Source: Paraniabella defluvii
Lineage (GTDB): Bacteria; Bacteroidota; Bacteroidia; Chitinophagales; Chitinophagaceae
Length of the DNA: 64,000 nucleotides
Reading direction: 5' to 3'
NCBI GenBank assembly: GCA_019316985.1
Contig: CP079215.1
Coordinates: forward strand, 2,294,001 to 2,358,000
This document shows positions 3,348 to 32,692 of this stretch, piece after piece; position 1 is the stretch's first letter; each line of letters opens with the position of its first letter. The notes beneath the pieces were generated by a model, which saw nothing but the letters and a program-made list of their open reading frames with translations, did no database searches and had not been told where the DNA came from. Made by a program: the position numbers and the translations under genes.

Positions 3348-3372
3348 TCTTATTACACTTAAATAGTAAACA

Positions 3373-4256: not shown

Positions 4257-4281
4257 TGTTTTTTGTTCGTAAAATTTCAGG

Positions 4282-4316
4282 GATAGCTGCAGTGTTATGC
4301 AGCTATCGCTTTTTAA
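4282..4316 (+). terminator. Intrinsic terminator after the susCD-LamG unit
   Basis: A perfect 10-bp stem, GATAGCTGCA / TGCAGCTATC, with the 6-nt loop GTGTTA, is followed by GCTTTTT. It sits 25 bp after the LamG stop and separates the binding/transport genes from the glycoside hydrolases, so the latter probably have their own promoter or depend on read-through. Confidence 0.7.
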
Positions 4317-4446
4317 TCAGTAATATTTTTAATAAAGATTAGCATCTTTTTTACCATATTTGTATTTGATTGCTGCTCGGCTTTTAAAGTAGCAGTCTTG
4401 ATTGGCACATAGCTTTTGCATTGCTTTATTCAATTAAAAAGTGTTC

Positions 4447-5806
4447 ATGAAAACGAAAAGGTTCCTTCTCCAGGGATTTTTTTCCTGGTATTATTGCCGG
4501 CAACAATGACTGCTCAAAAGTAGCTTCAAGGCCCGCTGCCATTCCTTACACTGTTAAGGTAGATAAAAATATTTCCGACTCCGCCCTGGTGAACCTGGTG
4601 CAAAAACAAACCTTACGATACTTTTGGGACTTTGCGCACCCGGTAAGCGGGCTGGCACGCGAACGCAGTAATATTTCTTTTAACTATGGCCCCGAAGTGA
4701 CTACCACCGGGGAACGGGTTTTGGCATTATGGCTCTCATAGTGGGGGTAAACAGGGGATGGATTGAGAGAGACACCGCTGCACGCTTTTTATTAAAAATG
4801 GTAAAGTTTCTTTCCAAAGCAGATGCCTACCATGGAGTATTCCCTCACTGGCTGGATGGCGCTACGGGCAAAACCATTCCTTTTAGCAGGAAAGATGATG
4901 GCGCCGACCTGGTTGAATCTTCTTTTTTATTCCAGGGGCTGTTGACTGCAAGACAATATTTCAATGGAAATGATAATGTGGAGCGCGAGCTGAGAAACCG
5001 TATCAACTGGTTATGGAATGATATCGAGTGGAACTGGTTTACCAATGGCGGGCAAAACGTATTATACTGGCATTGGAGTCCTAATAACGGCTGGGCGATG
5101 GACTTCCCCGTGCGCGGGTTTAATGAATGTTTGATCATGTATGTATTGGCGGCCTCTACTCCCAACGAAAAATACCAGGTTCCGGCTTCTGTTTATCACA
5201 GGGGATGGGCGCAAAGCGATTTCTTTATCAATAAGCGTAAGTTTTATAATTATACATTGCCTTTAGGTTTTGATTATGGAGGACCTTTATTCTTTTCCCA
5301 CTATTCATTCCTGGGGCTTTCGCCCAAAGGATTAAAAGACCGGTATGCCGATTATTGGGAGCAGAACCAAAACCATACATTGATCAATTACAGCTATTGT
5401 GTAGATAATCCTAAAGCATTTAAAGGATATGGAGAAAATTGCTGGGGCTTACAGCCAGCGATACTTATAACGGTTATGATGCGCATTCTCCCACCAACGA
5501 TCATGGCACCATAACACCTACAGCGGCACTTTCGGCGTTTCCCTATTCACCGGCTCAATCTATGAAAGCGTTAAGACATTTTTATGTGGACCTTGGCGAT
5601 AAGATATGGAGCCCTTATGGCTTTACCGATGCCTTTAATGAAACAAAAACTGGTATGCCCAATCGCACCTGGCAATAGATCAGGGCCCGATTGTTGTAAT
5701 GATAGAAAATTACAGAACAGGCCTTTTGTGGAATCTTTTTATGAGCTGTCCGGAAGTAAAGAACGGATTAAAAAAGCTGGGTTTTACAAGTGAATATTAT
5801 CAGTAA
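4447..5806 (+). CDS. GH144-type endo-beta-1,2-glucanase (glucoamylase-like domain), copy 1
   Basis: Secreted alpha/alpha-barrel hydrolase of the 'glucoamylase family' (PF10091 type), whose characterised Bacteroidota members are GH144 endo-beta-1,2-glucanases. The start MKTKRFLLQGFF leads into a hydrophobic signal region ending MTAQ after two small frame corrections (near 4485 and 4525). Conserved blocks are LRYFWDFAHPVSGLARERS, DGADLVESSFLFQGLL (Asp and Glu three apart) and VRGFNECLIMYVLAAS (putative acid Glu), then GWGLTASDTYNGYD and GFTDAFN. The natural C-terminus is GLKKLGFTSEYYQ, stopping at 5804-5806 and overlapping the next start by 17 bp. Further shifts lie near 4712, 5450 and 5655. 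The copy downstream is a close paralogue. Confidence 0.82.
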
Positions 5807-7061
5807 CAATAAAATAGAAAAAAACAGAAGCAGGCGGCTAAGCGACGATGCATTGCTGGAGCTGGTACAACATCGAACGTTTCGATACTTCTGGGATTTT
5901 GCCGAGCCTCATTCCGGTATGGCGCGCGAACGCAATAGGGAAACATTTCAAAATGTGGTCACCACGGGAGGCTCGGGTTTTGGTGTGATGGCTATTATTG
6001 TAGCAGTGGAAAGAAAATGGATTTCACGATCCGATGCTGTAAAACGGATCAGGAAGATATTGTCGTTCCTGGTTAAGGCCGATAAGTACCAGGGCGCTTT
6101 TGCACACTGGATCGACGGACATAATGGGAAAACAGTTCCTTTTAGCAAGAAGGACAATGGAGCCGATATAGTAGAGACTTCTTTTCTGTTCCAGGGACTG
6201 TTAACAGCGCGCCGGTATTTTGACAAAAGAAATGAAGATGAAAATTGGATACGTGAAACTATTACACTACTGTGGGAGCAGGTAAACTGGGAGTGGTTTA
6301 CAAAAGGGCAGGATGTACTATACTGGCACTGGAGCCCGGAGCATCAATGGGAAATGAACCTGAAGATCGAAGGGTATAATGAGGCATTGATTACTTACGT
6401 ATTGGCGGCAGCTTCTCCTCAACATGCTATATCCTCAAAAGTATATGATAAGGGCTGGGCCAGGAACGGGGATATGAAAAATGGTAAAGTCTTTTATAGG
6501 GTGAAGTTGCCGTTGGGGCCCGACTGGGGTGGACCGCTGTTCTTTGCGCATTTTGGTTTTGCCGGATTAGATCCGCGGGGATTGAAAGATAGGTTTGCTG
6601 ATTATGGTAAACAGAACCTGGCGCATGTAAAAATCAATTACCGGTATTGTGCCGACAATCCTTTACAGTTTAAAGGATACAATAAACAAAGCTGGGGTCT
6701 TTCGGCATGCGATTATAAAAAACGCTACTACGAGCAATCACCATTAAAGAACAACGGAACTATCTGTTGTTCCGCGGCGTTAGCCAGTATGCCCTATACT
6801 CCTGGAGCTTCGATGGCAGCGCTACGTTACTTTTATGAAGTGCTGGGCAATAAAATCTTCAGGGAATACGGCTTCACCGACAGCTTTAATCAGACACATA
6901 ACTGGTATGCCGACTCTTACCTGGCCATCAACCAGGGCATTACCATTTTGATGATCGAAAACTATCGCACCGGCTTGCTCTGGAAACTTTTTATGAGCGA
7001 TCCTGATGTAAAAAACGGGTTGTTTAAGCTGGGCTTTAAAAGCCCCTGGTTAACAAAATAA
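5790..7061 (+). CDS. GH144-type endo-beta-1,2-glucanase, copy 2
   Basis: Intact 423-residue paralogue of the gene it overlaps. It starts with GTG and lacks an obvious signal peptide (MNIISNNKIEKNRSRRLSDD), unlike copy 1, so it may be cytoplasmic/periplasmic or its true N-terminus may have been lost to a sequence error. Candidate catalytic residues are Asp126 and Glu129 (GADIVETS) and Glu198 (EGYNEAL). As I recall it, the characterised Chitinophaga pinensis enzyme has Asp139, Glu142 and Glu211; the spacings (3 and 69) are identical here. Other family blocks are VLYWHWSPEHQWEMN, GGPLFFAHFGFAGLDPRGLKDR and YGFTDSFNQTHNWYADSYLAINQG. The predicted reaction is endo-cleavage of linear beta-1,2-glucan to sophoro-oligosaccharides. 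Confidence 0.88.
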   Translation: MNIISNNKIEKNRSRRLSDDALLELVQHRTFRYFWDFAEPHSGMARERNRETFQNVVTTGGSGFGVMAIIVAVERKWISRSDAVKRIRKILSFLVKADKYQGAFAHWIDGHNGKTVPFSKKDNGADIVETSFLFQGLLTARRYFDKRNEDENWIRETITLLWEQVNWEWFTKGQDVLYWHWSPEHQWEMNLKIEGYNEALITYVLAAASPQHAISSKVYDKGWARNGDMKNGKVFYRVKLPLGPDWGGPLFFAHFGFAGLDPRGLKDRFADYGKQNLAHVKINYRYCADNPLQFKGYNKQSWGLSACDYKKRYYEQSPLKNNGTICCSAALASMPYTPGASMAALRYFYEVLGNKIFREYGFTDSFNQTHNWYADSYLAINQGITILMIENYRTGLLWKLFMSDPDVKNGLFKLGFKSPWLTK

Positions 7062-7066
7062 TTTTT

Positions 7067-8909
7067 ATGATACCAGCAATGAGAATAAATATCAGCAATT
7101 TCGCAACGTCTGTCTGCCGGCAAGGCGGGTTTCGTTTATGGGCGGTGCTACTAGCGTCACTCCTGTTAGTACAGCAAACAATTCACGCCCAGTATGCGGA
7201 CCAAGATAAACCAAAAACATACTGTAATCCCATCAATATCGATTATGGCTATACGCCTATTCCTAACTTTAGCACCTGGGGCAGGCATCGTGCAACGGCT
7301 GATCCCGTGATCGTCAATTATAAAGGTGATTACTACCTGTTCAGTACCAACCAATGGGGTATTGGTGGAGCAACGATATGCTCAACTGGAAGTTTATATC
7401 AAAAAAATTTTTACGTCCCTGGAATGCTGGCGTGTATGATGAATTGTGCGCCCCTGCCGTTGGTATTATCGGGGATACCATGCTGGTTTTTGGTTCTACT
7501 TACTCCCGCAATTTTACTATCTGGATGAGCACCAATCCCAAAGCCAATGAATGGAAACCTTTGGTTGATTCTTTTGATATCGGTGGGTGGGACCCCTCTT
7601 TCTTTACAGACGATGATGGCCGGTTGTATATGTACAACGGCAGCAGCAATAAGTTCCCGATGTATGGTGTGGAGTTGGATAGAAAAACAATGCAGCCGCA
7701 GGGTACCCGAAAGGAGATATACCTGCTGGAGCCCTGGCGTTTTGGCTGGCAACGCTTTGGCGAGCATATGGACAATACATTCCTGGATCCTTTTATAGAA
7801 GGAAGCCATATGAAAGCATAAAGGCAAATACTACCTGCAGTACGGGGCGCCGGGTACCGAGTTTAGTGGATATGCCGACGGCTTATTGGTAGGATCGGGG
7901 CCGCTGGGGCCGTTTGAAGCACAGTCGGACCCGTTAAGTATAAAGCTGGGCGGATATGTACGCGGGGCCGGGCACGGTGCTACTTTTACAGATAATTTTA
8001 ACCGCTACTGGCACGTATCTACCACCGTGCTTTCTGTAAAAAATACATTTGAGCGCCGCCTGGGCATCTGGCCTACCGGTTTTGATGAAGATGGTGCCAT
8101 GTGGTGTAATACCACTTTCGGCGACTATCCGCATTATATTCCATCCGGTACCATAGGGGTGGTTATGGCGAAAATGGATTGTCTCCCTACTTTACCGGCT
8201 GGATGCTGCTCAATTACAATAAACCTGTACAGGTGTCTTCCACATTAGGGGCTATGTTCCCAATAATGCGGTGGATGAATTGATGAAAACCTACTGGAGT
8301 GCCAAAACCGGTGATAAAGGAGAATGGTTCCAGACAGATCTGGGAAATATTTCTACGGTGAATGCTGTTCAGATCAATTACGCAGACCAGGATGTGGCCG
8401 ACGATCGCCTGGGCAAGGTTGCCGGTCAATACCACCAGTATAAACTGTATTATTCGCCCGACGGGAAAAAATGGAGCCTGTTGGTTGACAAGAGCACTAA
8501 CAAAACAGATATCCCGCATGAGTACGTGCAGCTGGATAAGCCGGTACAGGCACGTTATATAAAACTGGAAAATATTCATATGCCAACCGGGAAATTTGCT
8601 TTAAGCGGCTTCAGGGTGTTTGGCAATGGAAATGGCGCAAAGCCTGCTACCGTAAAAGATTTCGTGGTGCTCAGAACAGAAAAGGATAAACGCAGTGCTT
8701 TTATCAAATGGAACCCTGTAGATAATGCATTTGCCTATAATATCTTTTATGGTACACATCCCGACAAATTATATACCAGCATTATGGTGCATAGTAACAA
8801 TGAATACTGGATGAAGGCAATGGATTCGCAGAAACCTTATTATTACTGTATCCAGTCTGTTAATGAAAACGGGGTAAGCGAAAGAAGTAAAGTGATAAAA
8901 GTGGACTAA
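7067..8909 (+). CDS. Secreted GH43-like five-bladed-propeller hydrolase with C-terminal discoidin domain
   Basis: About 610 residues after joining frames. A signal peptide (WAVLLASLLLVQQTIHAQ) is followed by a GH43-like five-bladed propeller. Candidate catalytic positions are Asp in HRATADPVIVNYKGDYYLFS (base), Asp in GGWDPSFFTDDDGRLYMY, and Glu in FIEGSHMKAKGKYYLQYG (acid). After about 400 residues comes an F5/8 type C-like domain (WSAKTGDKGEWFQTDLGNISTVNAVQINYADQD ... YIKLENIHMPTGKFALSGFRVFG) and a fibronectin-like tail. Frameshifts lie near 7365, 7820 and 8230-8270. It begins 5 bp after the GH144 copy 2 stop, so it is co-transcribed. The exact linkage cannot be assigned; a side-chain-removing role in the same PUL is inferred. 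MRINIS at 7079 is an alternative start. Confidence 0.75.
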
Positions 8910-9031
8910 TGCATTGTTGCTATGAGAACTGCCCGAGTTTCAGCAGGCAGGCGACAACATATTAGTTAGGGGCGAAAAAACCCTGAATAGAAAGAATAGA
9001 TCATCTTATATATAAAATTAAAATTTGCTAT

Positions 9032-11311
9032 ATGGTAAAGAACGCTTTGTTATCCGTTGTGTTTCTTTTAGTGCTGGTGAGCGCAGGACGTGCTCAAGGC
9101 AGTGATGCCGCTATGAATAACTTCGTAACGGGGTTAATGAACAAAATGACGCTGGATGAAAAAAATCGGTCAGTTGAATTTACCCAGCGCAGGTGAATTC
9201 ACTACGGGCACCGCTACCAATTCTGATATCGGTGTGAACGTCAAAAAGGTTTAGTGGGAGGACTTTTTAATATTAAAGGTGTAGAGAAGATAAAAGCCAT
9301 TCAAAAAGTGGCGGTGGAAGAAAGCCGTATGAAGATTCCTATGCTGTTTGGGATGGACGTGATTCACGGTTATGAAACAACTTTCCCTATTCCGCTAGGA
9401 CTGTCTTGCACCTGGGATATGAAAGCCATAGAGCAGTCTGCGCGTATAGCGGCTACTGAAGCCAGCGCTGATGGTATCGGCTGGACTTTCAGCCCGATGG
9501 TTGACATTTCGCGGGACCCACGCTGGGGACGGGTTTCAGAAGGTAATGGCGAAGACCCCTATTTGGGATCGCAAATTGCCAGGGCAATGGTAAAAGGATA
9601 CCAGGGAGATTTAAGGTCTAATAATAACATACTGGCCTGCGTAAAACATTATGCCCTGTATGGCGCGGGTGAAGCGGGCAGGGATTATAATACGGTAGAT
9701 ATGAGCCGTATCAGGATGTATAATGAATATTTCCCGCCTTATAAAGCTGCGGTGGATGCCGGCGTGGGCAGCGTGATGGCATCATTTAATGAAATTGACG
9801 GTATTCCGGCCACAGGCAACAGATGGTTGCTTACAGATGTGTTGCGCAGGCAATGGGGCTTTAAAGGGTTTGTAGTAACCGATTATACAGGAATTAACGA
9901 AATGGTGGATCATGGATTGGGCGATTTGCAAACCGTATCAGCTCTTGCACTGAAAGCCGGTGTTGATATGGATATGGTGGGCGAGGGATTCTTAAAAACG
10001 CTGAAAAAATCTCTGGCAGAGAAGAAAATTACAACCGCCGAAATAGACATGGCTTGCAGGCGCATGCTGGAAGCAAAATACAAGCTCGGCCTGTTTAAAG
10101 ACCCGTACAAATACTGCGATGAAGCACGTGCCAAAAACGAAATATTTACAGAGGCTAACCGTAAAATAGCCAGGCAGATCGCTGCACAAAGCTTTGTATT
10201 GCTAAAGAACCAGGGCCATACACTGCCATTAAAAAAATCAGGAAAAATTGCTTTAATAGGTCCGTTGGCAGATGCCGCAAACAATATGGCGGGTACCTGG
10301 AGTGTTGCCCAAAGCAAGATAGGTCTATATCAGTTTTAGCAGGCCTAAAACAGGCATTAGGTAATAATGCTGAAGTATTATATGCGAAAGGCAGCAATTT
10401 AACAGCAGATCCTTTATTGGAAGAAAGAGCGACGATGTTTGGTAAAGGTTTAAATCGCGACAAGCGCAGTGAGGAAGAATTAGCCAGGAAGCTTTGGAGA
10501 TAGCTGCAAAATCGGATGTGATCATTGCAGCTATGGGCGAATCTGCGGAATTTAGTGGTGAAGCCAGCAGCCGGTCCGACATTGATATTCCCGAAACCCA
10601 GCAGCAGCTACTGAAACAATTACTGGCCACAGGAAAGCCGGTAGTGCTGGTGTTGTTTGCCGGACGCCCGCTTACATTAGGTTGGGAAGATAAAAATGTA
10701 CCAGCTATCCTGAATGTTTGGTTTGGCGGAAGCGAAGCAGGTGCAGCTATAGCGGATGTATTGTTTGGAGATGTGAATCCTTCCGGTAAATTAACCATGA
10801 GTTTCCCGCAGCATGTAGGCCAGACCCCCTTTATTATGCGCATAAAAATACCGGCAGGCCATTAGCTGAAGGCCAATGGTTTCAAAAATTCAGGAGCAAC
10901 TATATTGATGTTAGTAACGATCCTTTGTATCCATTTGGTTATGGTTTGAGCTATAGTTCATTTAATTACGGCGATGTAAAGCTAAGCAGCACCTCCCTGA
11001 AAGGTAATCAAACCTTAAAAGCCAGTGTTACGGTAACCAATTCGGGCCGGTACGATGGCCAGGAAGTTGTTCAGTTATATATAAGAGATGTAGTGGGCAG
11101 CGTTACCAGGCCTGTGAAGGAGCTGAAAGGGTTTCAAAAGATAATGGTGAAAGCCGGCGAATCTAAAACTGTTACTTTTAATATTACGCCTGAAGACCTG
11201 AAATTCTATAACAGCAATCTGAAGTACGACTGGGAACCTGGTGAATTTGAAGTAATGATTGGCGGCAATTCGAGGGATGTTAAAGTGCAAAAGCTTAACT
11301 GGACAAGGTAA
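9032..11311 (+). CDS. bglX: Periplasmic GH3 beta-glucosidase (BglX-like)
   Basis: GH3 exo-beta-glucosidase, about 755 residues, with signal peptide MVKNALLSVVFLLVLVSAGRAQG. The N-terminal barrel shows KMTLDEKIGQLNLP, DVIHGYETTFPIPLGLS, FSPMVDISRDPRWGRVSEGNGEDPYL and CVKHYALYGAGEAGRDYN; the nucleophile is the Asp of GFVVTDYTG. The second domain holds GESAEFSGEASSRSDIDIPE with the likely acid/base Glu, and a C-terminal fibronectin III-like domain ends at VQKLNWTR. Beside GH144 it would hydrolyse sophoro-oligosaccharides to glucose. Frameshifts lie near 9160, 9245, 10325, 10485 and 10860. The start is the ATG 122 bp after the GH43-like gene, and a strong terminator follows directly. Family call is firm; beta-1,2 preference is inference. 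Confidence 0.9.
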
Positions 11312-14417: not shown

Positions 14418-17400
14418 ATGAAAAAAACGTACTGAAGGGGCTTCTATTCCCTTCAGGGGCGCTGCTCAAAACCTTGCTTGTTATGAAGCTTGCTATTGCT
14501 ATTGTGTTGTTTACTGCTTTTCAGGTACAGGCCGGCAATGCCTCGGGCCAGGGCATATCTCTTAACCTAAAAACACCGATGTAAGAACCGTGCTTACAGC
14601 CATCGAAAAAAGCACGCGTTACCGGTTTATTTACAATTATGATTTAAGCGGGTTAAAAACCCAACTGGATTTCAAAGCTAAAGAAGCTTCTTTAAATGAG
14701 GTGCTGGAAAAGCTGCTCGAGGGTAATAATCTCACCTTTAAAAAGCTTAACAGGAATCTTATAGCCATTGTGTCCACCATTAAAGAAGAACAGCAGCAGA
14801 CACAGGTTACAGGTAAAGTAACAGACACCAAGGGCGATCCTATTCCGGGGCGTCAATTACAGAAAAAGGCACAACCAATGGTGTGGTTTCCGACGATAAA
14901 GGCCAGTACAAAATTACCGTGGGCGATGGCGCCGTACTGGTAGTAAGCGCAGTGGGCTTCCAGCAGCAGGAGGTCATTGTTGGCACCCAGACAGAAATTA
15001 ATATTGCGCTTGAAACCTCTGTGTCGAGCTTAAATGAGGTAATTGTTATAGGATATGGAACGCAAAGGAAAAAAGACCTTACGGGTTCGGTTGCAGTGGT
15101 AGACATGAAGGAATTGAAGGCGCAGCCCGCTGCCAGCCCGCTGGAGGCGTTACAAGGCAAGGCGGCCGGTGTACAAATAGTAAACGACGGATCGCCAGGG
15201 GCTACGCCACAAATTCGCATTCGTGGTTTTAGCACCATTAATAATAATGATCCTCTATTTATTATTGATGGAATGCCTTACCAGGGTAAACTAAGCTGGT
15301 TAAGCTCCAACGATATAGAAAGTATGCAAGTGCTAAAAGATGCATCTGCTGCCTCTATATACGGATCAAGAGCCAATAACGGGGTAGTGATCATCACCAC
15401 CAAAAAAGGCAGGTCGGGAAAGCCACAGGTTAACCTGGATATTTATTACGGCAGCCAGAACCCCAATCGCAGCCGTTTTCCTACTTATCTGAATCCGCAA
15501 CAGTTTGCCGAGTACCTGTTTACAGGGTATAGAAACGCAGGGTTAGATCCTACCAAAACAGATTATTATGGTACCAATGCCAATCAGCCAACATTGCCCG
15601 AATACTTGTTGGCCGGCAGCACCAACGGTCAAAAGATCACTCCAGCAATGGTAGACCGTCGCTTTATAGGTACACCACCAGTCAAAGCACTTTTTACCAG
15701 ATTACTAAAGCCAATCAGCAAGGCACCGACTGGTTTAGAACCATTACCCAAAACGCACCCATGCAAAATTATCAGCTCACTGTGAGCGGAGGTTCAGAGA
15801 AGTCCAACTATGCGGTAAGTGGCGGCTATCTCAACCAGGAGGGAATTGTTAAGTACACAGGCTTTAAGCGTTATACCATAAGGGCAAATACCAACTTTAC
15901 TTTGTTGAACGATCGCCTGCAATTAGGGAGAATATTCAATACTCAAGAACCCAGGGTGTTGGGTTTGCAACCAACGTAAATACCCCGGGTAGTTATATGG
16001 GTGAAGGATCTCCTATAGGATGGGCCTATCGCATTCAAACTATCATCCCTGTATATGATATTATGGGCAATTTTGCCGGTAGCAGAGGCAACCTGCTCGG
16101 AAATGCAGAAAACCCTCTGGCAGTACTGGTACGTGGAAAAGATAATTTAAATACCAGTAACCAGTTCTTCGGAAGCGCTTTTGCCGATCTTAAAATACTG
16201 GAGGGACTGAATTTAAGAACTACCTATGGCGTACGTTACGAAACCTGGAATGGGGTTTCAGTAACTTACCCCAATCCCGAGCGTGCAGAAGGTAGTTATG
16301 ATAACCACTCCTTCAGCGAAAATATGGGTTGGGGCACAGACTGGACCTGGTCTAATACACTGACCTATAAAAAGCAATTCAACGAGAATCATGAGATCAC
16401 TGTTTTAGCAGGTACCGAAGCGATCAAAGCAAACGGCCGTATTTTAAGAGGCTCTGCTAATGGCTTTTATTTAATGGGTGATATGAATTATTACTACATG
16501 AATACGGCCAATTCCTCGCCTGTGGCTGCAAATGATATTATACAGCCCAGTTCTCTTTTCTCTATATTGGGTAGGGTAGATTATAGCCTTATGGATAAAT
16601 ACCTGATCTCTGCTACATTACGCCGCGACGGTTCCTCAAGGTTCGGCTCTAATAACCAGTATGGAAATTTTCCGGCAGCCAGTGTAGCATGGCGGCTTTC
16701 TAATGAAGAATTTTTTAAAACAGTTACCTGGGTAAATGATCTGAAGCTTCGTGCCGGTTACGGTGTTACCGGTAACCAGTCCATCCGCGATTTCGAATTT
16801 CTAAAAAGATTACACAGCTTCTCTGAACAATTCTTTCTATCCGATCAACGGAAGCTTGTCAAGCGGTGTGTGGATTGCGAATTATGACAATAAGGACGTA
16901 AAATGGGAACAGGCCCAGTCTTTGAACCTTGGGATTGACTTTACTTTGTTCAATAATAAATTAGGAGGTTCATTCGATGTTTACAATAAAAAAACCAAAG
17001 ACCTTTTATATGTTTTGAATCTGCCGGCACAGGCCATCGGTGGCGGTCAATCGCCTTTGTGAACCTGGGGAACATGAGTAATAAAGGTTTCGAAATAGCA
17101 TTGAATTATCATTATTCAAGCCTTGCGCCAACCAATCCGTTTTCGTTAGACGTTGGCGTTAATTTGTCTAGGAATATCAACGAGTTAACAAAGCTGGCAG
17201 ATGGTGTAAAAAGAACCTTCCTGTTAAGCAACCGCTCTGTACAGCCCTCTGTACTACAGGCAGGTCTTCCCTTCGGCGCTTTTTATGGATACAAAGTGGA
17301 AGGCATCTTCAAGTCTGCGGAAGAAATCGCCGGCGCCGCTACCCAACCAGGGGCACATTTGGGAGGTTTCAGGTATGCCGATGTATCAGGTCCCGATGGC

Positions 17401-17964
17401 AGGCCTGACGGAATTATTAATGATGAGGACCGCACGTTTATTGGGAATCCGCATCCCGACTTTATTTATGGACTTAACCTGAATGCCCGCTATTATAATT
17501 TTGATGTTTCGTTATTCTTTAACGGATCGCAGGGTAATGAATTGTTTGATATGACCCGCCTGTACACCGATCTTAGCCTGTTTGACGGAGCCGTGAGTGA
17601 CAGGATGCTCAATGCATGGAGCCCCACCAATACCAGCAGCAATATACCTGCTCCTTACCGGGACCGGCCGGCTATCGAAATGCTTTCGAACAGCTATTTT
17701 GTACAGGATGGTAGTTATTTGAAGCTGAAATTACTGCAAATAGGCTACAATTTCAAGTTCAAAGGCGCTTTACAGGATAAGGTGAAAAACTGCAGGCTTT
17801 ATGTAAGCGGCACTAATTTATTTACTGTTACCAAATACACAGGTTTGGATCCTGAAGTTACTTCTTCTCCCGGAAGCTCCGGCGCCTGGGCTGCACCTGG
17901 AGTGGATATGGGTATGTACCCCATGTCTCGTCAGTTCCTGGTAGGGTTAAATGTTACATTCTAA
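14418..17964 (+). CDS. SusC/RagA-family TonB-dependent transducer-transporter with STN domain
   Basis: About 1,180 residues. After the signal region (LLVMKLAIAIVLFTAFQVQAG) comes an STN domain (ISLNLKNTDVRTVLTAIEKSTRYRF ... ASLNEVLEKLLEGNNLTFKKL), the periplasmic signalling module that contacts FecR. Then a CarboxypepD_reg domain (TGKVTDTKGDPIPGASI), the SusC linker NEVIVIGYGTQRKKDLTGSV, the TonB plug (PLEALQGKAAGVQIVNDG ... IRIRGFSTINNNDPLFIIDG ... DIESMQVLKDASAASIYGSRANNGVVIITTKKG), and a barrel ending in FLVGLNVTF. Frameshifts include sites near 14575, 14845, 15660, 15930, 16815 and 17055. The STN domain separates it from the SusC at 26852-29987, which lacks one, and fits the upstream sigma/FecR pair. 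Confidence 0.93.
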
Positions 17965-17988
17965 ACCTCGATCTAAAAATATATAACG

Positions 17989-19693
17989 ATGAAAAATTTA
18001 TATAAATCTTTTTTATACTCTGTTTGCTGTTAATTGTTTATTCCTGTGGAAAAGGCTTTTTGGAACAGAAGCCACAGGCGATCCTTTCAGAAGAGCAACT
18101 AAAAGGAACCAAAGGCGTGGAGTCGGCGCTGATAGGGGCTTACGGAATCATGAACGGAAACATCAGCGGCACCTGGGGAAACTATTCAAGTTCTCCAAGT
18201 CAGTGGCTATTTGGAGAAGTGGGCTCCGACAATGCTCATAAAGGAAGTAATTCGCTCGATCAGTCTCCGATGAACGACATTGAACTGCATCGTGTAGATC
18301 CCTCCAATGACAACTTCCCACTATGTGGCGCGTTTATTACGAAGGTATCGGACGCTGTAATTTAACGCTAAGCCTGCTCAAAGCGGTGCAGGAAGGCAGT
18401 GGTGAAAAATTGAGCGATCAGAGAGCTAAAGAAATCACCGGCGAAGCCAGGCTGCTGCGCGGGCATTATTATTTTTTCCTGGCAAGAGTGTTCAGGGATA
18501 TACCCTATGTGGATGAAACCATGAGCACGCAAGATGCTGCCAAAGTTAAAAATGATAAAGATGTTTTTCCTATGATCGAAGCCGACTTTAAAGCAGCTAT
18601 TGACAACCTTCCCGCTGAAAAGCCATTGGGCGATGTAGGACGGGGAGACAAGCGGGCAGCACAGGCTTATTTGGGAAAACTGTATCTCTATCAAAAAAGT
18701 ATGCAGAAGCGTTACCCTTGTTCCAGGAAGTGATCAACAATAAGCCTGCCTTAAGTACGCTGGCCTTTGACGCCAACTTCAACATCAAAACAAAGAACGG
18801 ACCCGAAGGCATCCTGGTTTCCCAAAGTATCATTAACCCCGACGGCAGCGGTGACAACGGGAATGTGGGGATATGCTGGGCGGACTGTACGGCGGACCTA
18901 TTAACTGCTGCGGCTTTTTCAGCCTACGGTAGACCTGGTAAACTCTTTTAAAGTAGATGCGAACGGCCTGCCGTTTTTGGATGGCAGCTACCGCAATAAT
19001 CCTTATGTGTCAGACCAGGGCTTAACCGGGGCCGAAAGGGATAATTATAAGGTAAATACCGCTATAGCATTCGATCCCCGCCTGGACTATACCGTAGGCC
19101 GGAGGGATGTTAATTATCGCGACTGGGGTGTATTGCAAAGCTCCTGGATTCGCGACCAGGCTTTTAGCGGTCCTTTTGTTGGGGTTAAACAAATGATCAA
19201 TGTTGCCGATATGGATGGAAATGTGTCACCAGGTACCAGCAATATCACGGCGCAAAATGTAAACATCATTCGCTTGTCCGATGTTTACCTGATGGCTGCC
19301 GAATGCGCAGTAGAAACCAATGCACTTCCGTTGGCGATGAATATGGTAAATGCCGTAAGGTTGCGTGCTGCCAATTTGCCGGCGGTGAAAGCCAGCTCGG
19401 GTGCGGCGGCTGCACAATATATGGTAAAGCCCTACACTTCTTTTCCTAACCAGGCCTATGCCCGTAATGCGGTTCGGTTTGAACGAAGGCTGGAACTCGC
19501 ACTGGAAGGTCACCGGTTTTTCGACCTGGTACGTTGGGGCACTGCTAAATCGGTATTGGAGCCCTTTATGGAATTCGAGAAAAAATATGTAGCAGCGTCA
19601 AGAACGATTACTTATACCGATAAAAACAATTATCTGCCCTTGCCACAGGAGCAGATCGACCGGGCACAGGGTGCACTAACCCAAAACCAGTAA
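17989..19693 (+). CDS. SusD/RagB-family lipoprotein
   Basis: Partner of the preceding SusC, about 565 residues. The N-terminus is MKNLYKSFLYSVCLLLIVYSCGKGFLEQKPQ with lipobox Cys and the SusD start motif. Core motifs are KEITGEARLLRGHYYFFLARVFRDIPYVDE and, near the end, NAVRFERRLELALEGHRFFDLVRWGTAKSVL followed by NNYLPLPQEQIDRAQGALTQNQ. Frameshifts lie near 18017, 18318, 18700 and 18890-18940. It is followed by a symmetric terminator shared with pheS. No glycoside hydrolase follows, so the ligand of this pair is not predictable from the window. Confidence 0.92.
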
Positions 19694-23647: not shown

Positions 23648-25087
23648 TTATTGCTGAAAATCGCCCATATCGGCCAGTTCTGCTTTCATTAAAAAAACAT
23701 TGTAAGGCATCCACATCGACATCAGGAAATAAAGATGATCGCCTGTGGCAGACAGCGGATGGATATAGGAGCCATACAATTGAGGATACGCGTTGCCGGC
23801 GGCCAGCTCGTAAGGCTTGCTCCAGGGCCGGTGATATTTTCGGCAGTGCGCATGGTAATATTATAGCGATCTTCACTGAAATAGGTAATGATCCATTTTT
23901 TATGCGTGGCGTTATAAATAAAAGAAAGCTCGCCTACTTTTTCGTTGATGATAACGCTGGCAGCCGATTCATTTCCGGTTACCCATTGGCCGGTTGTATT
24001 ATTCCAGTATTCGTATAAGTTCTGGTTTTCAATATCTGCTTCCTTGAACCGTGCTAAATAGGCGGGGTTATTTCTTCCTGCATGGGTACCTATCATGTAT
24101 ACATAGCCGTCCTTTTTAAAATAACCTGCCATGCCAAAATTGCTGTTGGCCGAAAATAATACCGTTTCGCACTTTTTCCAGGTCTGACCCTTATCAACCG
24201 ACTTGTATAATCCCGAATGATTGGTGATCCAACCCGTCCAGTTCCTGATATTGAAATAATGCACATAATCTGCTCCGTTTGCACGGATGACGGCAGACGG
24301 TATCGAAGTTAGATTACCGTTGCCAGACTGGTCTTTTCCCCGGTACTATTTCACGTGCATTGCCTGCATTATCAGTTGCCATACTGCTAAATGTAAGCCC
24401 GTCGTCTAACTGGGTATCGGCAGAAAATGCCAGCACATTTGAGCGCCAGCTGCCGCCATTAGGGCCGGGATTGGCTGCGTTTGGAACAAAGTCCTGGCCA
24501 AACGTATCGCCAAAGAATATTCCGTAATTATTGGGTTCCATTTCCCATATAATTCCCAGGTCGGTACCGCCTACATTCCATTTTCCTGCGGTATTGTTTG
24601 GTGAAGGGAATGTTTCGCTTCCTATCGGCTTACCCGTAACACGGGCAATACGCTGCGTGCTTCGTACAAAAAAGCCCCAGCGGTTATCTACATTTAGTGT
24701 GAGCGTGTTCGATGCATTCCGTCTTTGTAGTATGCTTTCAACAACAGTTTGAAAGATTCAGGATCTGTTGTCTGAATAGGATAGCTGAAAGTATAAGTTG
24801 CGGCAAGTTCCTGCCGGTTTATTTTACTGCTATAGCTACTGCCCCGCTTTTTGTAACCGAGATATGATCTATAGCATCCAGGTTTTTAAAACTTAAAGCC
24901 GTAGCAACCGTTTTGGTTTGCTTATCGGGAATAAGGATGGTTTGAGCCGCTGTAAGCTCGTCTGTGGGCACAAACACGTCCTTTTCTGCGTCTTTTTGCA
25001 GGCAATAAGCAGGCAAAGAAAGCACACCGTTACTGTATGAAGTATATATATGCTTTCCTTAGCCCGCATGGTGTATTGTTTCAGCAT
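23648..25087 (-). CDS. DUF4185 (GH183-like) lipoprotein, candidate endo-D-arabinanase
   Basis: About 475 residues. The N-terminus (SIYILHTVTVCFLCLLIACKKTQ) is a lipoprotein signal, followed by a roughly 100-residue module (LTAAQTILIPDKQTKTVATALSFKN...) and then a DUF4185 beta-propeller: MEPNNYGIFFGDTFGQDFVP, NWTGWITNHSGLYKSVDKGQTWKK, YVYMIGTHAGRNNPAYLARFKE, EYWNNTTGQWV, VGELSFIYNATHKKWIITYFSEDRYNITMRTAENITGPWSKPYEL. Part of DUF4185 became GH183, endo-D-arabinofuranases. Its ATG overlaps the susD stop (TAATG), implying translational coupling. Frameshifts lie near 24970, 24835, 24720, 24325 and 23820. The family is well supported; D-arabinan activity is inferred with the GH172 neighbour. Confidence 0.8.
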
Positions 25088-26841
25088 TAATATCCTGGAT
25101 TTTGTGTATAGTTACCTTTTGCCCAATTGATCTGTGGTTGTGGTATCGGGAAAAATTCATCGCGGCCTGATGTGAATTTCGCAACGTTCATCCACGCAAA
25201 CCGGGTTTTTTCAACAGCGAAATAGTCGTTCATTGTTTTCTCTAAAATACCCCAGCGTTGTAAGTCAAAGAAGCGGCGTCCTTCTCCTGCCATTTCAGGC
25301 GATTTTCCCATTGCATGGCTTTCCACGCAAAATCTTTGGTCCAGCTGCAGTTAACACCAGGTTTATAGGTTTCAATACGGTAATTCAACACAGGCTGACC
25401 ATTACTTTTTACCAGTCGCCCGGTGCTGTTTGCGGCTCTCTGGCGAATTTTATTGATGGGTTCCAATGCTTCCTGGTGCCGGTCGAGCTGAATAAGGATT
25501 TCTGCTTTCCACAACAATACTTCATCATACCGGATCATTCTTTTATTCATCGAATTAAACTGCCATCCATCATATAATAAACATCCGCAGTTGGGGCGGG
25601 GCAGCTCTTTAATTGATTTAAAATAGCCATATTCGGCTGCATTGCGAATGCCCTTGTTTTCGAAGATCAGGTTGGGGTCGTATTTCCAGGGAAGACCTGG
25701 CGCAGCAATAGTGTGGCTAAACCTGGGGTCAAAAGTATTGTTGGTAAAATAGGTGCCGGGATTGTCTGCATAGCTCCCGTTGTTATAGGTGTCGAAGAGC
25801 GGTAAGCCGTCAGCGCCGGTTTTAAATGCGTTACCCATGGCATAGCTGATGTGATGAAAGCCGCAACAGGTAAAGCCGCCCCAGTTAAACGGATGGTTCA
25901 ACCCCTCGCCCCTGTTAATTTTTCCACCGGTAGAGCTGCCGTCATTTATGGAGTACTGAATTTCCCAGATCGACTCCTTGGTTTTATTATCAAACTCAAC
26001 TTCGAAGTTGTCGGAAAAATCGGCCTGCAACGCCACTTTGCCTCCTTCCTGGCCGGTTATCTTGTTGATGTAGGTTAACGCCTCCGCCAACCGGTCTTTG
26101 TTGATGTTTACTACTTTGTGCATATCATCCTGCTCATAGGCCATAAACATCAGCGTTCTTGCAACCATTGCTGTAGCAGCGTTTTTATCTACCCTTCCCT
26201 TATCCTGCTGGGCAGCGGGCAACCGGCTTTCTGCATCCTTGAAATCGTTCAGTATCTTTTCCCATAAATACTGGTCGTTCGGGTAGTTTTTATCCCGGTT
26301 AGGCACCGCTTCAAATGCAGCGCTGGCGCCCACTACGTTCTCATCGATATAGGGAATGTATTAAAAAATTGCTTAAGCCTGAAATGCACGAATGCCCTGA
26401 TGAACTTTACTTCACCAATACGAACATCTTTAGACGGAACGCTTCGCTGCTTATCAGTTGTAATTTTTGTATGGCAGTATTGCAACGCTGAATAATCTGG
26501 TACGAAACATACCAGGGGTAATCGAGCGGCCAGCCATTAGGATTGAGGCCTACAAATGTCTCCATATTGTGCCAGCCATCGCCATCCCAGGTGCCGCCAC
26601 CGCCTTTGTACGAATCGTCTGAACGCATAGAGCCCGACCACCAGGGAGAGAACGGCGAGTCAAAAGATGGTATGTCAGTCATTCTTGCATAGGCTGCGGT
26701 AACAAAGCCTTCCATATCTTCAGGTTTTGTTAGCAGGCCTTCATCCAAAACCTGTTTAGGTGCAACATCAAGGTATCGGTCACATCCTGTAAACGATAGC
26801 ATTAAAAAGGCGGATAATAAAAAGTGTATATACTTAGTCAT
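25087..26841 (-). CDS. SusD/RagB-family lipoprotein of the GH172/DUF4185 PUL
   Basis: About 585 residues. MTKYIHFLLSAFLMLSFTGCDRYLDVAPKQVLDEG is a lipoprotein signal running into the SusD N-terminal motif. The ligand-binding region is aromatic-rich (WWSGSMRSDDSYKGGGGTWDGDGWHNMETF; HPFNWGGFTCCGFHH). The C-terminal block MAGEGRRFFDLQRWGILEKTMNDYF and DEFFPIPQPQINWAKGNYTQNPGY are canonical. Frameshifts lie near 26420, 26345 and 25310. The ATG at 26841 is 10 bp after the SusC stop, so I chose it over the longer frame beginning at 26865, which overlaps susC. It is coupled to the DUF4185 gene at its stop. Confidence 0.92.
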
Positions 26842-26851
26842 TGTAAATAAT

Positions 26852-29800
26852 TTAGAATGTAACATTAAGTCCCAGTGTATAAAAGGCAGGAGTCAGGTAT
26901 CCATAACCCGGCATCTCCGGATCGAAGCTGGTAAACTGGTTTTTTTGATGGTGAGAATATTTCTTGCCGATGTATAAATTCTCAGGTGTTGTATCCTTGC
27001 CCTTCCCGATATCTTTTTAGGCAGGGTATAGCCCAACTCGATATTTCTTAATTTTAAGTAGGAGCCATCTTCTACAAAATAACTTGACATGCGTACTTCT
27101 GCATTCTGATTGGAATTGGATATGGCAGGGATGTCTGAATTCTGGTTATCAAAATACCAGCCCCTAAAATCCGTGTGGGATGGTTTTTATGGGCCGGCAC
27201 GTTTATATTCCACAAATCAGATTCATATTTCCAGGCGTTCAGTACTTTATTACCAAAAACGCCCTGGAAGAATACATTCATATCAAAATTGCGATAGCCC
27301 AGATCAAACGTTACACCACCAAAAAATTTGGGGTCTAATACACCTATGTAGGTTCTGTCGTTTAGTTCTTCTATCTTACCATTACCGTCTACATCTTTAT
27401 ACCGGATACGGCCGATGGCTTTACCTGTTTGCTCCGCATGCCTGTCTACTTCTTCCTGGGTTTTGAAAATGCCGTCAGCCACCAACCCGTATAAAATATT
27501 AGGGCTTTTGCCAATTACATTGTCTTCTTTTCCATTGCCCGGGTACTTGTTAATTACATTTTCCGGAATACTGGTGATCCTTGTTTTATAAGTACCTATA
27601 TTGGCTGATATCCCGTACTGAAGACCGTACTTTGTATTGTCTTTATAGCCTAATTCAAATTCAATACCCTTATTGTTCATTGCTGCGCCATTGATCCAGG
27701 GCTCACCACCTTCTCCCATTGCAGCTATGTAGGGTGTTTGTACCAGGATATCCGTGGTTTTTTTAAAGTAATAATCAAATGAGCCATTTAAGCGGTAGTT
27801 GAAAAGACTAAAGTCTATACCCAGATCTGTCTGCTTGGTAGTTTCCCACCGCAGGTCAGGATTTCCCAGCCAGGTTCTTCTGTAGCCGGAAAGCAGCGTT
27901 CCGGTTTCATTGCCCAGTATAGGATAGGAGGTTCCAAAATAATCTGTAGTGAATGGTGTAGAGGTGTAACCTCGTGGCAGGCCTTGTACGCTGCCGTTGG
28001 CGCCCCAGCTGGCACGTATCTTTAAATCTGAAATAAAATCAACGTTTTCCATGAATTTTTCCTGGCTAACTCTCCATCCGGCCGAAAAAGCGGGGAATAC
28101 TGCATACCGGTGGTTCACGCCAAACAGCGATGAACCATCCCTCCTGAGGGTGGCTGACAGAAGATATTTTTGATTGTATGTATAATTGGCTTTGGCAAAA
28201 AGCGAATAATACACATATTCGTCTGCCGAACTGCCTAACGAGTATTTGTCGCCGGTGGTAATTCCCAAATGGGCAAAATCGCGGTCTTCCAGGTAAACAC
28301 CTTCCCTGCGCGCACTGAAGCCTTCCTGTACAAACCGGGTAAATTCTATACCTCCTACTGCATTAAAGCTATGTTTGCCCTTATTCAGGTTATACGATAA
28401 AGTATTGGTCCACACATAGCTTAGGGAATGGGATTGATTGTTACCTACATAATTCTCGCCGTTACTGCTTCTGCCGCCGGTTTCCGACCATTCTTTATCA
28501 AGCGCGCGGTTGTAGGCATTGCCATAGTCGATCCCGAATTGCGAACGGGCAGAGATACCTTTCCATATGTTCAGGTCGGCAAAAACATTCCCGATGATCT
28601 TTACAAAGTGGTTGATATTATCCTTGTTATCTGTAAGCACACGTACGGGGTTGGTAAAATCGTCGAAGCCAGCTGCACCGGCCCAACCGCCATTGATATC
28701 GCGAACGGGAACTGCGGGTGGGTTAATCAGCGCCCAACGCAATTCATTGGCATCCCTGTACTGTAAATAAGAGATGGCCAGGTTTTCACCTATTTTCAAA
28801 CGGTCATTAATAAGGCTGTATTCTGTATTGGATCTGATAGAATATTTTTTGAAGAACGTATGTATCTGTGTTCCCTCGTTATTAAAGTATCCTAAAGAAA
28901 ACAGGCTTTTCGACCTGTCGGTACCCTTTGACACCGTTACCTGGTGCTCGGTCATTGTTGCGGGTTGAAGAATTTCATCAAGCCAGTTGGTATTAGAGCC
29001 CCTTACTGTTTTGTCTGCATTCAGCCATTCCGCAGGCTTTACAGCATCCAGCACTGCCCGTCCGTTGTCATCTCTATGCCAGGTAAAATCATAGGTTGCC
29101 GGCAGGTTTAACGGGGTGCCGTAAACCTGTTCGTCGTAAGCGTATGCCCTGAACATGGCCGTTCCGTATTGTTCGGCATTCATTAACGTAGGTTTATTAA
29201 TTACTTTACTGAGTGCCAGGCTGCCCGAATACTCCACTTTCGTCTGACCGCTCTTTGCCTTTTTGGTTTGAACCAGTATTACACCGCCCGATGCCCTGGC
29301 ACCATAAATACTGGCCGATGCGGCGTCTTTCAGCACCTGCATGGACTCTATATCGGCGGCATTAATATCGCGCAGATTTAAGTTCTCGGTAGGCATACCA
29401 TCTAACACGATCAATGGGCGTACACTTCCCGAAAGAGAAGAAAGCCCCGTATCTGTACCGTTACATTTTCTGCGGGGTTTCCTCCGTTGGTGGTGATGTG
29501 TACACCTGCCAGTTTACCCTGTAAAGACTTCATGGCATTGGCTGACGGGTTTTTGGCGATATCATTGCTTGTTGCCATTGAAATGGCGCCTGTGAGGTCT
29601 TTTTCTTCTGTACCATGTATCCTACATAAACTTCTTCGAGCAGGGCCACATCATTTTCCATAGTTATATCAATCACCGGCGCCCCGCTACTGCTCTCTCC
29701 TCTGGCTTTTTTTCCCGCATAGGTAAACACCAGCACGTCTTCATTTGAGGAAACTGCTATTTCGTATTGCCCGGCGCTATTGGTAACCGTACCCCCGTCG

Positions 29801-29987
29801 GCTCCTTTTATACGTACGCTTACTCCGTTTAAAGGGGTTCCTGTTTCTTTTTCAGTAACAGTTCCTTTTACTTTTCGGTCCTGAAAGAGGTTTCCTGTGT
29901 TCCCTGATACCTGCAAACAAATAACCTGGCAAAAAGGAAACAGGCTAAGACCATTTTGCATTTAATACTCATTGTTTTCTTCTTCAT
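26852..29987 (-). CDS. SusC/RagA-family TonB-linked outer-membrane transporter of the GH172/DUF4185 PUL
   Basis: About 1,040 residues. After a short signal region (IKCKMVLACFLF) comes a CarboxypepD_reg domain (VKGTVTEKETGTPLNGVSVRIKGADGGTVTNSAGQYEI), the linker LLEEVYVGYMVQKKKDLTGAI, a TonB plug (MIVLDGMPTENLNLRDINAADIESMQVLKDAASASIYGARASGGVILVQTKK) and the barrel with LLSATLRRDGSSLFGVNHRYAVFPAFSAGW, ending TPAFYTLGLNVTF. There is no STN domain, so it is not expected to work with an ECF sigma/FecR system. Frameshifts lie near 29900, 29595, 29460, 27100 and 26940. It is preceded by a 145-bp gap with no visible promoter. Confidence 0.93.
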
Positions 29988-30132
29988 AATATTTAAGAAT
30001 TGGTTTCCGGCTCTTTAATTAAACTTTCTGTTTTACCTGTGTTTTTATTCATTTGTGGTAGTAACTATCCCGTTCGGAGCTTGTTTGGGAGGTCACAAAC
30101 GGCAACCGGCCGGCTAATTGTTTCCTGGCTTT

Positions 30133-31192
30133 TCATTGTCTTTTATTTTTTATCTTTTTAATAAATTGATCGGCAGATAGCGGGCTGATGCCGAAAACAA
30201 ATATGTTCCCCTGTTTGAATGGTGCTTTCAGTTCAAAATTTTCATAAGCAATGCCCCCGGGATGGGAGAGCGGCTTGCCCAATAGGTATACCTGCCGTTT
30301 ACCAGGCCTTCCAGCCCAGGGTTGTGGCTCGTGCTATACCAGTATTGGGTTGCTTTACCTCCATAGTATTTCCAATGCTCATTGGTGCCGTTTGCATACA
30401 CGGCTTTTGCAGGATCTTTTTCGTCGGGAGCGGCAATAAAATAGGACTTACCATCGGGGCGGTTATAAAATCTTCCACCGGAAAATGAGCATGTGCTGTA
30501 AATGCATCCCCGTTGTAATCGGGCCATAGCGTGCCCGAAAAAGTTGTTCCTGATTTAAGAAAGAGGTTGCGCAACCGAGCATAATTGCCCATGGTGGCGG
30601 TTACTATAAAATAATCCAGGGCTTTGGAGCCTTGCGTTGTATAGGTTGTGATTTCAACTTCGTAGGGTTGATTTTCATAAAACCTGAGCCTTGTATAAAC
30701 GATGGCCCCGTTGTCAAACCTTTCGGAAAATATATATACCGTTAATGTTTCCACGCCTGCTATCTTTTCAATAATACCGGCGGCCGGTGTATCTTCCTGA
30801 GCTGGGGTAGTACTTTAATGAGTCGTTCGCACTCCAGAATCTTTTGCCCCTTTTGTTATCGAGTTTACTCATTTCGAGTTCTGAAAGTCCGCGGTTGTTA
30901 TCTCCTTTTACTACAGGCTCAAAGGCAATAAAATTCATTACCTCAGCATTTTTGTGACCCAGGTAAGGGGTATAGATGCGTAGTAGTCCCCTGGGGCCGG
31001 GCAGGGAGACAGGCCTACCTGTAATCCTTTGGCGTGTCCCCAAACCGGTTGTGCCGGCTCATTTTGTGTGGGTTGCACCCATATCTTGCCTGTTTTTGGC
31101 GGCGCCAGCTTTTGCCATTCCTGTGCATTGGTTGTTGCATAAACGGACAGGAGCAATAGGCAGGGTATAAAAATCGTAGTGAATTTTTTCAT
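30133..31192 (-). CDS. Secreted protein of unknown function in the GH172/DUF4185 PUL
   Basis: About 350 residues after joining four frames (breaks near 31030, 30780, 30490 and 30250). The start MKKFTTIFIPCLLLLSVYATTNAQEW is a clear type I signal peptide. I do not recognise the family. Visible conserved-looking stretches are QNEPAQPVWGHAKGLQVGLSPLPGPRGLLRIYTPYLGH, VMNFIAFEPVVKGDNNRGLSELEMSKLDNKRGKRFWS, LTVYIFSERFDNGAIVYTRLRFYENQPYEVEITTY and DYFIVTATMGNYARLRNLFLKSG. The alternating strand pattern and many aromatic residues suggest an all-beta fold, possibly a new hydrolase or binding protein. It lies 13 bp after the GH172 gene and before susC, so it is surely part of the PUL transcript. Confidence 0.7.
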
Positions 31193-31205
31193 ATAGCTAC
31201 TGGGT

Positions 31206-32350
31206 TTATTTTCCTATTGTAGGCCCCGCGGTATTCACTAGTTCTGGTATCCGTTCTTTTACAGGCGGCAAAGCCGGGAATGGGGCATGGGGCTCCATTT
31301 GATACCAATAAGCAACTGTATAATAGTTGTCTGCCCTGTGGTTGGCGTGCCCTTGCTCAATCGTCATTTTAATAGACTTGTTAAATACCACCGGCGACTC
31401 TGAATGGTATCGGTACACGGTCCATTGCGCACCTCTGTCGTCGCCGCCATTTTGAGGATTGCCGTATTCGCTGTAGGCAAAAGTTGGTTTGGCGTGGCCG
31501 AAGGGACTGATGCCGCATCCGCCATAGCACCAGGCGCCCAGGTAATAATCTTCAGCACCGGTACCGTGTATCTTAGGTTTGGGCGCGCCGTCGATAAAAA
31601 TCATTTCATCTCCTTCGCCCCACCAGTCTCCCTGGTTTTGAATTATGCTGTGGGTAACTCCCACGAAATGACCCTTTCCTTCAGCTTCCAGTATCACATA
31701 ATTGTCTGCGCCGGTTGTGTTTTCCTTATTGTTAATTTTCGGATCTCCATTGTATTTCCAGTCGGTGGTCCAGCCTTTTGTGGGAGTTGCTTGCCGGTAC
31801 TGTGCGTGGAAGTAGGCTACATTATCGGGCAGTGTTTTATGCTTTTCCCAGTCAATATTGTAATAGAAAGCATCGATGGCCTGTTCTCCTTCATTGGTAA
31901 CGGTTATTTTTGCCGACTTTCTGAAAGGCATTTCAAACGAGCTGTTCAATGCTCTCTGGGAGCCTACCGAAAGGAATTTTGATTCGTACAGGAAGTATTT
32001 TCCCAGGCCTAATCCAAAAAAGTCGCCGATGGGCGCTTCCACGCTGGGCGTTTTTTCGTCGTCCCAATATATACGGAGTACTATTTTTTCAGGTGCTGTG
32101 GTTCATTGCTTGCTATGGTTATCCATATATGCTTAATAATTCCGGGGCCTGCTACCTCGCCAATGGTACGTGTATCACCGGGCTTTATTTTGTTTTTCCA
32201 GTTCCCGTCATCGTTAGCGCCGCTGATGTCGTAGCTCGATATCCTTTCCGATGAATAATCGCGGATCTGCCATATTTGTTGCGCATAAAGCTTGGGTAAT
32301 GAACTAAGGAAAAGCGTTAAAACCGCCAGCGTTGAGATAATTCTATGCAT
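31206..32350 (-). CDS. GH172 (DUF2961) furanosidase, candidate exo-alpha-D-arabinofuranosidase
   Basis: About 380 residues with signal peptide IISTLAVLTLFLSSLPKLYAQQ. The double jelly-roll DUF2961/GH172 signature is plain: DISGANDDGNW, IKHIWITIAS, VEAPIGDFFGLGLG, QNQGDWWGEGDEMIFIDG and GTGAEDYYLGAW. The Glu of GEGDE and the Glu of GAEDYY are 21 residues apart; as I recall, the catalytic pair of the founding enzyme (Glu270/Glu291) has the same spacing. Known GH172 activities are alpha-D-fructofuranosidase/difructose dianhydride I synthase and exo-alpha-D-arabinofuranosidase. One T is lost near 32085. It is the first gene of the PUL and sits 305 nt downstream of the predicted start of transcription. 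Confidence 0.87.
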
Positions 32351-32607
32351 TCGTTAACTTTTATAAATGGAAGTAATTGGTTTTATTGTTCAGGCAGGGT
32401 TACTGCTTATTTATGGCCCTACGTTTCAGATAAAAGCCCTGCTCCAAATCTTTTTACCTCTTTTTTGCGAGATCCTGTAATACCACTCACATCTGATTGG
32501 GTAAATAACAGGCAAGAAATATTTTAAAGCATTGCCGCAATAGCGGTTATTACCAACCGCTCCATGCATTTTCCCGCTACGTTATAGAGCCTCATTTCAG
32601 AAGCATG

Positions 32608-32623
32608 GCTTAATCGTTTAAGC
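32608..32623. promoter_or_regulatory. LacI-type operator palindrome, downstream copy
   Basis: GCTTAATCGTTTAAGC is a 16-bp palindrome broken only at the two bases flanking the central CG, the form expected for LacI/GalR-family binding sites. It lies about 30-45 bp downstream of the predicted transcription start (about 32655). Confidence 0.5.
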
Positions 32624-32659: not shown

Positions 32660-32692
32660 CAAAAATACTGCTTAATCGTTTAAAGTGCCAAA
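32660..32692 (-). promoter_or_regulatory. Full -33/-7 promoter of the GH172/DUF4185 PUL
   Basis: On the minus strand: TTTG at 32692-32689, a 21-bp spacer, then TATTTTTG at 32667-32660, matching TTTG-N(19-23)-TAnnTTTG. The spacer is almost filled by an operator-like palindrome, so repressor binding would block polymerase. Confidence 0.6.
32670..32685. promoter_or_regulatory. LacI-type operator, copy inside the promoter spacer
   Basis: GCTTAATCGTTTAAAG is identical to the site at 32608 in its first 14 bases. The two centres are 62 bp apart, about six helical turns, compatible with looping. Confidence 0.5.

Follow-up and report, generated by a model that had tools for sequence, protein, structure and literature searches.

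A likely D-arabinan utilisation operon in Paraniabella defluvii, predicted to share LacI control with a second locus

Background

The envelopes of mycobacteria and corynebacteria have D-arabinan at their core. The genes of endo-acting D-arabinan enzymes were reported in 2023 (PMC10115798, PMC10509167), and GH183 enzymes are described as cutting both arabinogalactan (AG) and lipoarabinomannan (LAM) (PMC10115798). The closest described systems are those of Microbacterium arabinogalactanolyticum and of Dysgonomonas gadei, the species given in PMC10115798, for which an earlier sequence-only reading of the present DNA had written Dysgonomonas gordonii. Here we analyze a stretch of 64,000 nucleotides from Paraniabella defluvii (the window; positions 2294001-2358000 of the one contig of a 6.13-Mb assembly), in which a SusC/SusD pair and genes for GH172 and GH183 proteins form a candidate D-arabinan utilisation operon. 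An open-access literature search gave no report of such a system in Niabella.

For EndoMA1 of M. arabinogalactanolyticum, PMC10509167 assigns roles to D33 and D51 (the catalytic Asp pair) and to E243 (a third carboxylate). The same source locates the fructose gate of GH172 enzymes at Gly299 in alphaFFase1 and at Asn253 in ExoMA1, and names a GH116 for D. gadei. In BACUNI_00161, Cys304 appears to clash with bound fructose (PMC8605356).

Results and discussion

Layout of the predicted operon

Five co-directional genes run on the minus strand of the window from 32353 to 23648: GH172, HYP350 (a gene for a protein of 350 residues and unassigned family), SusC, SusD and GH183. We consider it likely that they form a D-arabinan utilisation operon and, together with a second locus roughly 220 kb distant, one LacI-controlled regulon. 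This is read from gene content and order, catalytic residues, the grouping of GH183, the likeness of the second locus to characterised enzymes and the positions of a shared motif. The sequence-only reading had already outlined a D-arabinan system; the residues and grouping of GH183, the second locus and a shared palindrome support that outline, although the second locus, HYP350 and the palindrome were absent from it.

The GH172 gene (DUF2961; 31206-32353, two frames) is recognised by a Pfam score of 264 bits (cut-off 27), by PDB sequence matches, by tblastn with the intact copy of a Niabella metagenome-assembled genome (L054) and by its place in a tree. HYP350 (approximately 30133-31192, several frames) follows from tblastn, homologs and a fold model of the intact Niabella yanshanensis ortholog. 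Both proteins are predicted to be exported. The SusC-type outer-membrane transporter (26852-29987) and the SusD-type lipoprotein (25087-26841) each occupy several frames and were located by tblastn with the N. yanshanensis proteins, to which they are 93% and 91% identical over the longest pieces; all SusD pieces range from 56 to 97%, and the N. yanshanensis ortholog carries the Pfam SusD domain. GH183 (DUF4185; 23648-25087, at least three frames) is a predicted surface lipoprotein with an added N-terminal domain, supported by Pfam, residues and the comparison of an ortholog model with EndoMA1. Signal peptides and the lipobox of the window proteins were judged by eye. The junctions are short: about 13 bp between GH172 and HYP350, about 10 bp between SusC and SusD, and an overlap of the SusD stop with the GH183 start. 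As in a polysaccharide utilisation locus (PUL), a SusC/SusD pair stands with carbohydrate enzymes in one direction. Much of this had been called from the letters alone and is borne out: DUF2961 with its Glu pair 21 residues apart (GEG...ED, as E233/E254 of DgGH172c), DUF4185 (three Pfam pieces of 87, 166 and 55 bits, cut-off 39.5), and SusC, SusD and DUF4185 on one strand with short or overlapping junctions. Four of the five genes had been named, HYP350 being the one passed over.

The predicted surface enzyme

The intact GH183 ortholog of N. yanshanensis matches DUF4185 at 326 bits in Pfam. When aligned, the DUF4185 pieces of the window and the intact orthologs all keep D33, D51 and E243 of EndoMA1. 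The broken window gene was not a row in the GH183 tree; the intact Niabella relatives that represent it fall inside the Bacteroidota GH183 rows. Compared with EndoMA1, the predicted structure of the ortholog is a five-bladed propeller of the same type. Neither of the outcomes that the sequence-only reading had set against itself for this protein, a place outside GH183 and loss of the catalytic acids, was observed. Of 195 genomes of the bacterial family, 3 have strong DUF4185 matches (E < 1e-20), a rarity that excludes chance for this match; at E <= 0.001 the count rises to 37 of 195, those beyond the strong three being weaker and mostly partial. The only strong match in P. defluvii is the one in the window. 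The predicted surface enzyme is a close match to known D-arabinan-cutting GH183 enzymes.

A second locus

About 220 kb from the operon, the same genome carries the gene order GH172b-LacI-GH172-DUF6786-FucI-FucP-P692-GH116 (C1:2083491-2097495), without SusC/SusD and without GH183. In a tree of 56 rows the GH172 encoded there clusters with ExoMA1 at 100/98. The corresponding locus of N. yanshanensis has a SusC/SusD pair of its own and a short GH183. For the N. yanshanensis copies, the GH116 finds its best PDB match in the exo-beta-D-arabinofuranosidase ExoMA2 (371 bits, the next at 40), and FucI in a D-arabinose isomerase (965 bits, followed by L-fucose isomerases at 936). GH183, GH172, GH116, isomerase and SusC/SusD, which a PUL42-type locus holds together, are thus split about 220 kb apart in P. 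defluvii. The window locus alone is only about half of a D-arabinan system, and much of the remaining pathway appears to be encoded by the second locus.

A single cluster is found in Proteiniphilum acetatigenes, Petrimonas and Seramator, where FucI, three GH172, SusC/SusD, GH183, HYP350, GH116 and P692 occur together; in the stretches read, LacI and DUF6786 are each present in two of the three and FucP in none. Of all 32 GH183 loci, 10 include a GH172 in their stretch, 8 a FucI and 9 a GH116. In Niabella drilacis and N. aurantiaca (L077, L078) the arrangement is another one, a cluster of two GH183, P692 and GH116; Niabella therefore holds D-arabinan loci of more than one kind.

A shared palindrome

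Two copies of the palindrome TTAAWCGWTTAA, each a predicted LacI-type operator, lie just upstream of the window GH172 (32610-32621 and 32672-32683). P. defluvii has 5 copies of this 12-mer, 3 of which fall within the two loci; N. yanshanensis has 8, with 4 inside its own pair of loci, and genome G022 has a single copy, outside the loci. Read backwards as a control, it occurs 8, 5 and 2 times, respectively, so the position of the sites is unusual rather than their number. The longer 14-mer GCTTAAWCGWTTAA has three distinct sites in P. defluvii, all within the two loci, five in N. yanshanensis (four in loci), five in G716, all in loci, and one in G150; G022 and G124 have none. Its control counts are 0, except for 1 in G716. 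Binomial tails for the 14-mer in the loci are 5e-8 for P. defluvii and 3e-9 for N. yanshanensis, values that overstate the case because the motif was first found in these loci. Over the 613,593 bases of the 32 GH183 loci, 19 copies of the 12-mer are present, while the reversed pattern has 0 and 20 Markov controls average 0.35. These occurrences fall in 11 loci, and the 12-mer is absent from the other 21, including those of Seramator and Dysgonomonas. Two Proteiniphilum and one Petrimonas have two copies between LacI and FucI. We predict that GCTTAAWCGWTTAA is the binding site of the LacI of the second locus.

The palindrome also lies directly upstream of P692 (C1:2092904-2094901; L038:4267-6345). 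This protein of about 690 amino acids is found repeatedly in D-arabinan loci of both Niabella and Dysgonomonadaceae, and its Pfam similarity is weak (GH88 below the cut-off, GH127 weaker still).

GH172 and HYP350

In the 56-row tree the window GH172 belongs to a clade of its own (18 rows, 100/100), apart from DgGH172c/BACUNI_00161, ExoMA1 and alphaFFase1, the last forming a separate long branch. In a smaller tree, which came with a long-branch warning, it joins alphaFFase1 weakly (89/80). That tree was built without L060_20668 (a fragment), L050 and L052 (odd rows), and the wider one additionally without all 1.5-domain GH172b rows. A place within the fructofuranosidase branch, the other outcome named beforehand as fatal, was accordingly not found. 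Orthology with DgGH172c, a candidate from the place near SusC, is ruled out by both trees. The best PDB match of the single-frame window piece is alphaFFase1 (200 bits, against 174 for DgGH172c); the intact L054 protein matches BACUNI_00161 at 238, DgGH172c at 221 and alphaFFase1 at 213 bits.

The catalytic Glu pair and the Trp and Tyr of subsite -1 of alphaFFase1 are matched in the window GH172. Its gate residue, taken as the residue following the conserved Trp, is Cys, as in DgGH172c and in 120 of 120 among the matches listed (8000 scored); Cys304 of BACUNI_00161 is presumably the same aligned residue. The protein thus shows neither the Gly at 299 nor the grouping of an alphaFFase1-type enzyme, and it has the bulky non-Gly gate residue of an exo-arabinofuranosidase. 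Judged by context and gate residue, not by orthology, it is likely an alpha-D-arabinofuranosidase. In a phylum sample of 395 genomes, matches at E <= 1e-60 occur in 5, those other than P. defluvii itself at 43 to 48% identity.

HYP350, between GH172 and SusC, gives no match to Pfam and NCBIfam at E <= 0.1, and its profile none to PDB sequences at E <= 1. For the intact N. yanshanensis ortholog a galactose-mutarotase-like (supersandwich) fold is tentatively predicted, and no family in the fold lists decides its function. Both Niabella and Dysgonomonadaceae carry the protein in D-arabinan loci, and elsewhere it is apparently linked to the uncharacterised GH172 clade. A tentative idea is that HYP350 represents a new family of carbohydrate-active proteins, mutarotase-like in fold and acting on D-arabinofuranosides, which with the new GH172 clade would fill a missing step of D-arabinan breakdown in Bacteroidota within a split LacI regulon.

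Points against the operon and rival explanations

Several observations weigh against a working D-arabinan operon under common control. None of the five genes is one open frame. FucI is not separable from L-fucose isomerase by sequence, given 965 against 936 bits. Two 12-mer sites of P. defluvii lie outside the loci, at C1:1290570 (with MFS-like frames and a fragment resembling LacI nearby) and C1:5195083, and the fifth 14-mer site of N. yanshanensis (C1:2030336; L110:5339) lies upstream of a GH97 gene, where it may mark a further regulon member or be due to chance. The clade of the window GH172 holds no characterised member, let alone a characterised arabinofuranosidase, so that the known enzyme type which the sequence-only reading saw in this protein was not recovered. 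GH172 is also missing at the same site in relatives: N. yanshanensis has an intact HYP350-SusC-SusD-GH183 without it, and N. hibiscisoli (L063) has the same four genes and no GH172 in the stretch read. Finally, in G150 and G071, the two other Chitinophagaceae in which the wider context of this GH172 was read, close homologs stand with no GH183 or HYP350 in stretches of 31.5 and 33.0 kb, the closest SusC-like frames being about 5 and 15 kb from GH172.

The frame breaks, present in all five genes of this assembly, could mean that the locus has decayed and no longer functions, which we regard as very improbable. The fraction of sequence in stop-free frames of at least 300 amino acids is 0.40 for the operon, 0.28 for the rest of the window and 0.10 for the second locus; the two N. 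yanshanensis loci reach 0.84 and 0.73. Coverage that is low outside the operon as well indicates assembly-wide breaks, in an assembly with a listed completeness of 72%. Moreover, an intact database protein of 381 amino acids (P0125) is 99% identical to the window GH172 piece over 298 columns, and the catalytic residues are retained.

An upstream gene, rhomboid-like by eye, is common to the window, N. yanshanensis and the Niabella metagenome-assembled genome, where the order is LacI-GH172-HYP350-SusC-SusD-GH183 (L054, taken by its match as the same contig as C96 of G716). The site is therefore the same, and GH172 was gained or lost within it. A LacI gene upstream of GH172, as in L054, gave no match above 30% identity within the window (tblastn). 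As a rival reading, GH172 and HYP350 might be a module that was inserted into a GH183-SusCD operon and serves another sugar, either an alpha-D-fructofuranoside or some unknown furanoside. The separate clade, the N. yanshanensis site and the GH183-free homologs of G150 and G071 fit such a module, as do GH172 and HYP350 homologs that apparently share at least nine contigs among the matches listed. Nonetheless we think it unlikely: the Cys at the Gly299 place is shared with the D-arabinofuranosidase DgGH172c, HYP350 is present in Dysgonomonadaceae GH183 loci without the window-type GH172 clade, and both window palindromes stand before this very GH172.

Proposed pathway and source of the polymer

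In the D-arabinan operon as we read it, the GH183 lipoprotein would cut alpha-D-arabinofuranan internally at the cell surface; the mechanism would be a retaining one, in which the conserved Asp pair supplies the nucleophile and the acid/base. SusD would bind the oligosaccharides and SusC would carry them into the periplasm. There, GH172 proteins of both loci would remove terminal alpha-D-arabinofuranose and the GH116 beta-D-arabinofuranose caps, and HYP350 may act on these sugars, perhaps by converting anomers or as another hydrolase. A FucP-type carrier would take up D-arabinose, which the FucI-type isomerase would convert to D-ribulose. The LacI of the second locus would repress both loci through GCTTAAWCGWTTAA until a D-arabinose-derived signal appears.

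We infer that the D-arabinan comes from actinobacteria. As further sources of alpha-D-arabinofuranose, PMC10115798 and PMC8605356 name glycans from elsewhere (Gram-negative lipopolysaccharide O-antigens and pilin glycans, environmental D-arabinofuranosides), and no gene for the galactan part was noted in the two loci, though no search was aimed at such genes. We give such an origin a modest chance, well short of that of AG and LAM: the whole set of endo GH183, alpha-exo GH172 and beta-exo GH116 suits their branched, beta-capped arabinan, and they are what published GH183 enzymes cut.

The locus would extend the D-arabinan system to Chitinophagaceae, and the palindrome offers a DNA motif with which to look for more D-arabinan genes. 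Should the motif be confirmed, the membership of unnamed genes in D-arabinan digestion becomes directly testable. The Cys-gated GH172 clade and HYP350 are possible tools for dismantling D-arabinan-containing walls.

Other loci in the window

Three further regions of the window were observed. Positions 515-10339 may be a locus for a beta-glucan such as beta-1,2-glucan: pieces of SusC and SusD are accompanied by a GH3, an F5/8 type C protein and two proteins with the Glycoamylase domain (PF10091), which is linked to GH144. At 14817-19693 a SusC/SusD-like pair, about 30-44% related to the D-arabinan SusC, has no recognised enzyme alongside. Positions 60488-63486, with a carrier of the major facilitator superfamily (MFS), a glucosamine-6-phosphate isomerase-like protein and a GHL15-domain piece, are a possible amino-sugar locus.

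Comparison with known systems

With alphaFFase1 of Bifidobacterium dentium (as described in PMC8605356) the window GH172 shares DUF2961, the catalytic Glu pair and the Trp and Tyr of subsite -1. It differs in the Cys that replaces Gly299 at the fructose gate, and alphaFFase1 stands on its separate long branch. The likeness to M. arabinogalactanolyticum reaches further: GH183 agrees with EndoMA1/2 in residues and predicted fold, the second-locus GH172 groups with ExoMA1, and ExoMA2 is the best PDB match of the N. yanshanensis GH116. However, that Gram-positive set works, according to PMC10509167, with an ATP-binding cassette transporter where SusC/SusD serves here, and EndoMA1/2 carry a C-terminal putative carbohydrate-binding module instead of an N-terminal domain. 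PUL42 of D. gadei, as given in PMC10115798, likewise has GH172, GH183 and a fucose isomerase with SusCD-type neighbours. It differs from the Niabella set, which is split over two loci, has its window GH172 in another clade than DgGH172c and has HYP350 between GH172 and SusC. The window-type GH183 falls together with a protein from a Dysgonomonas that also encodes a GH172 98% identical to DgGH172c.

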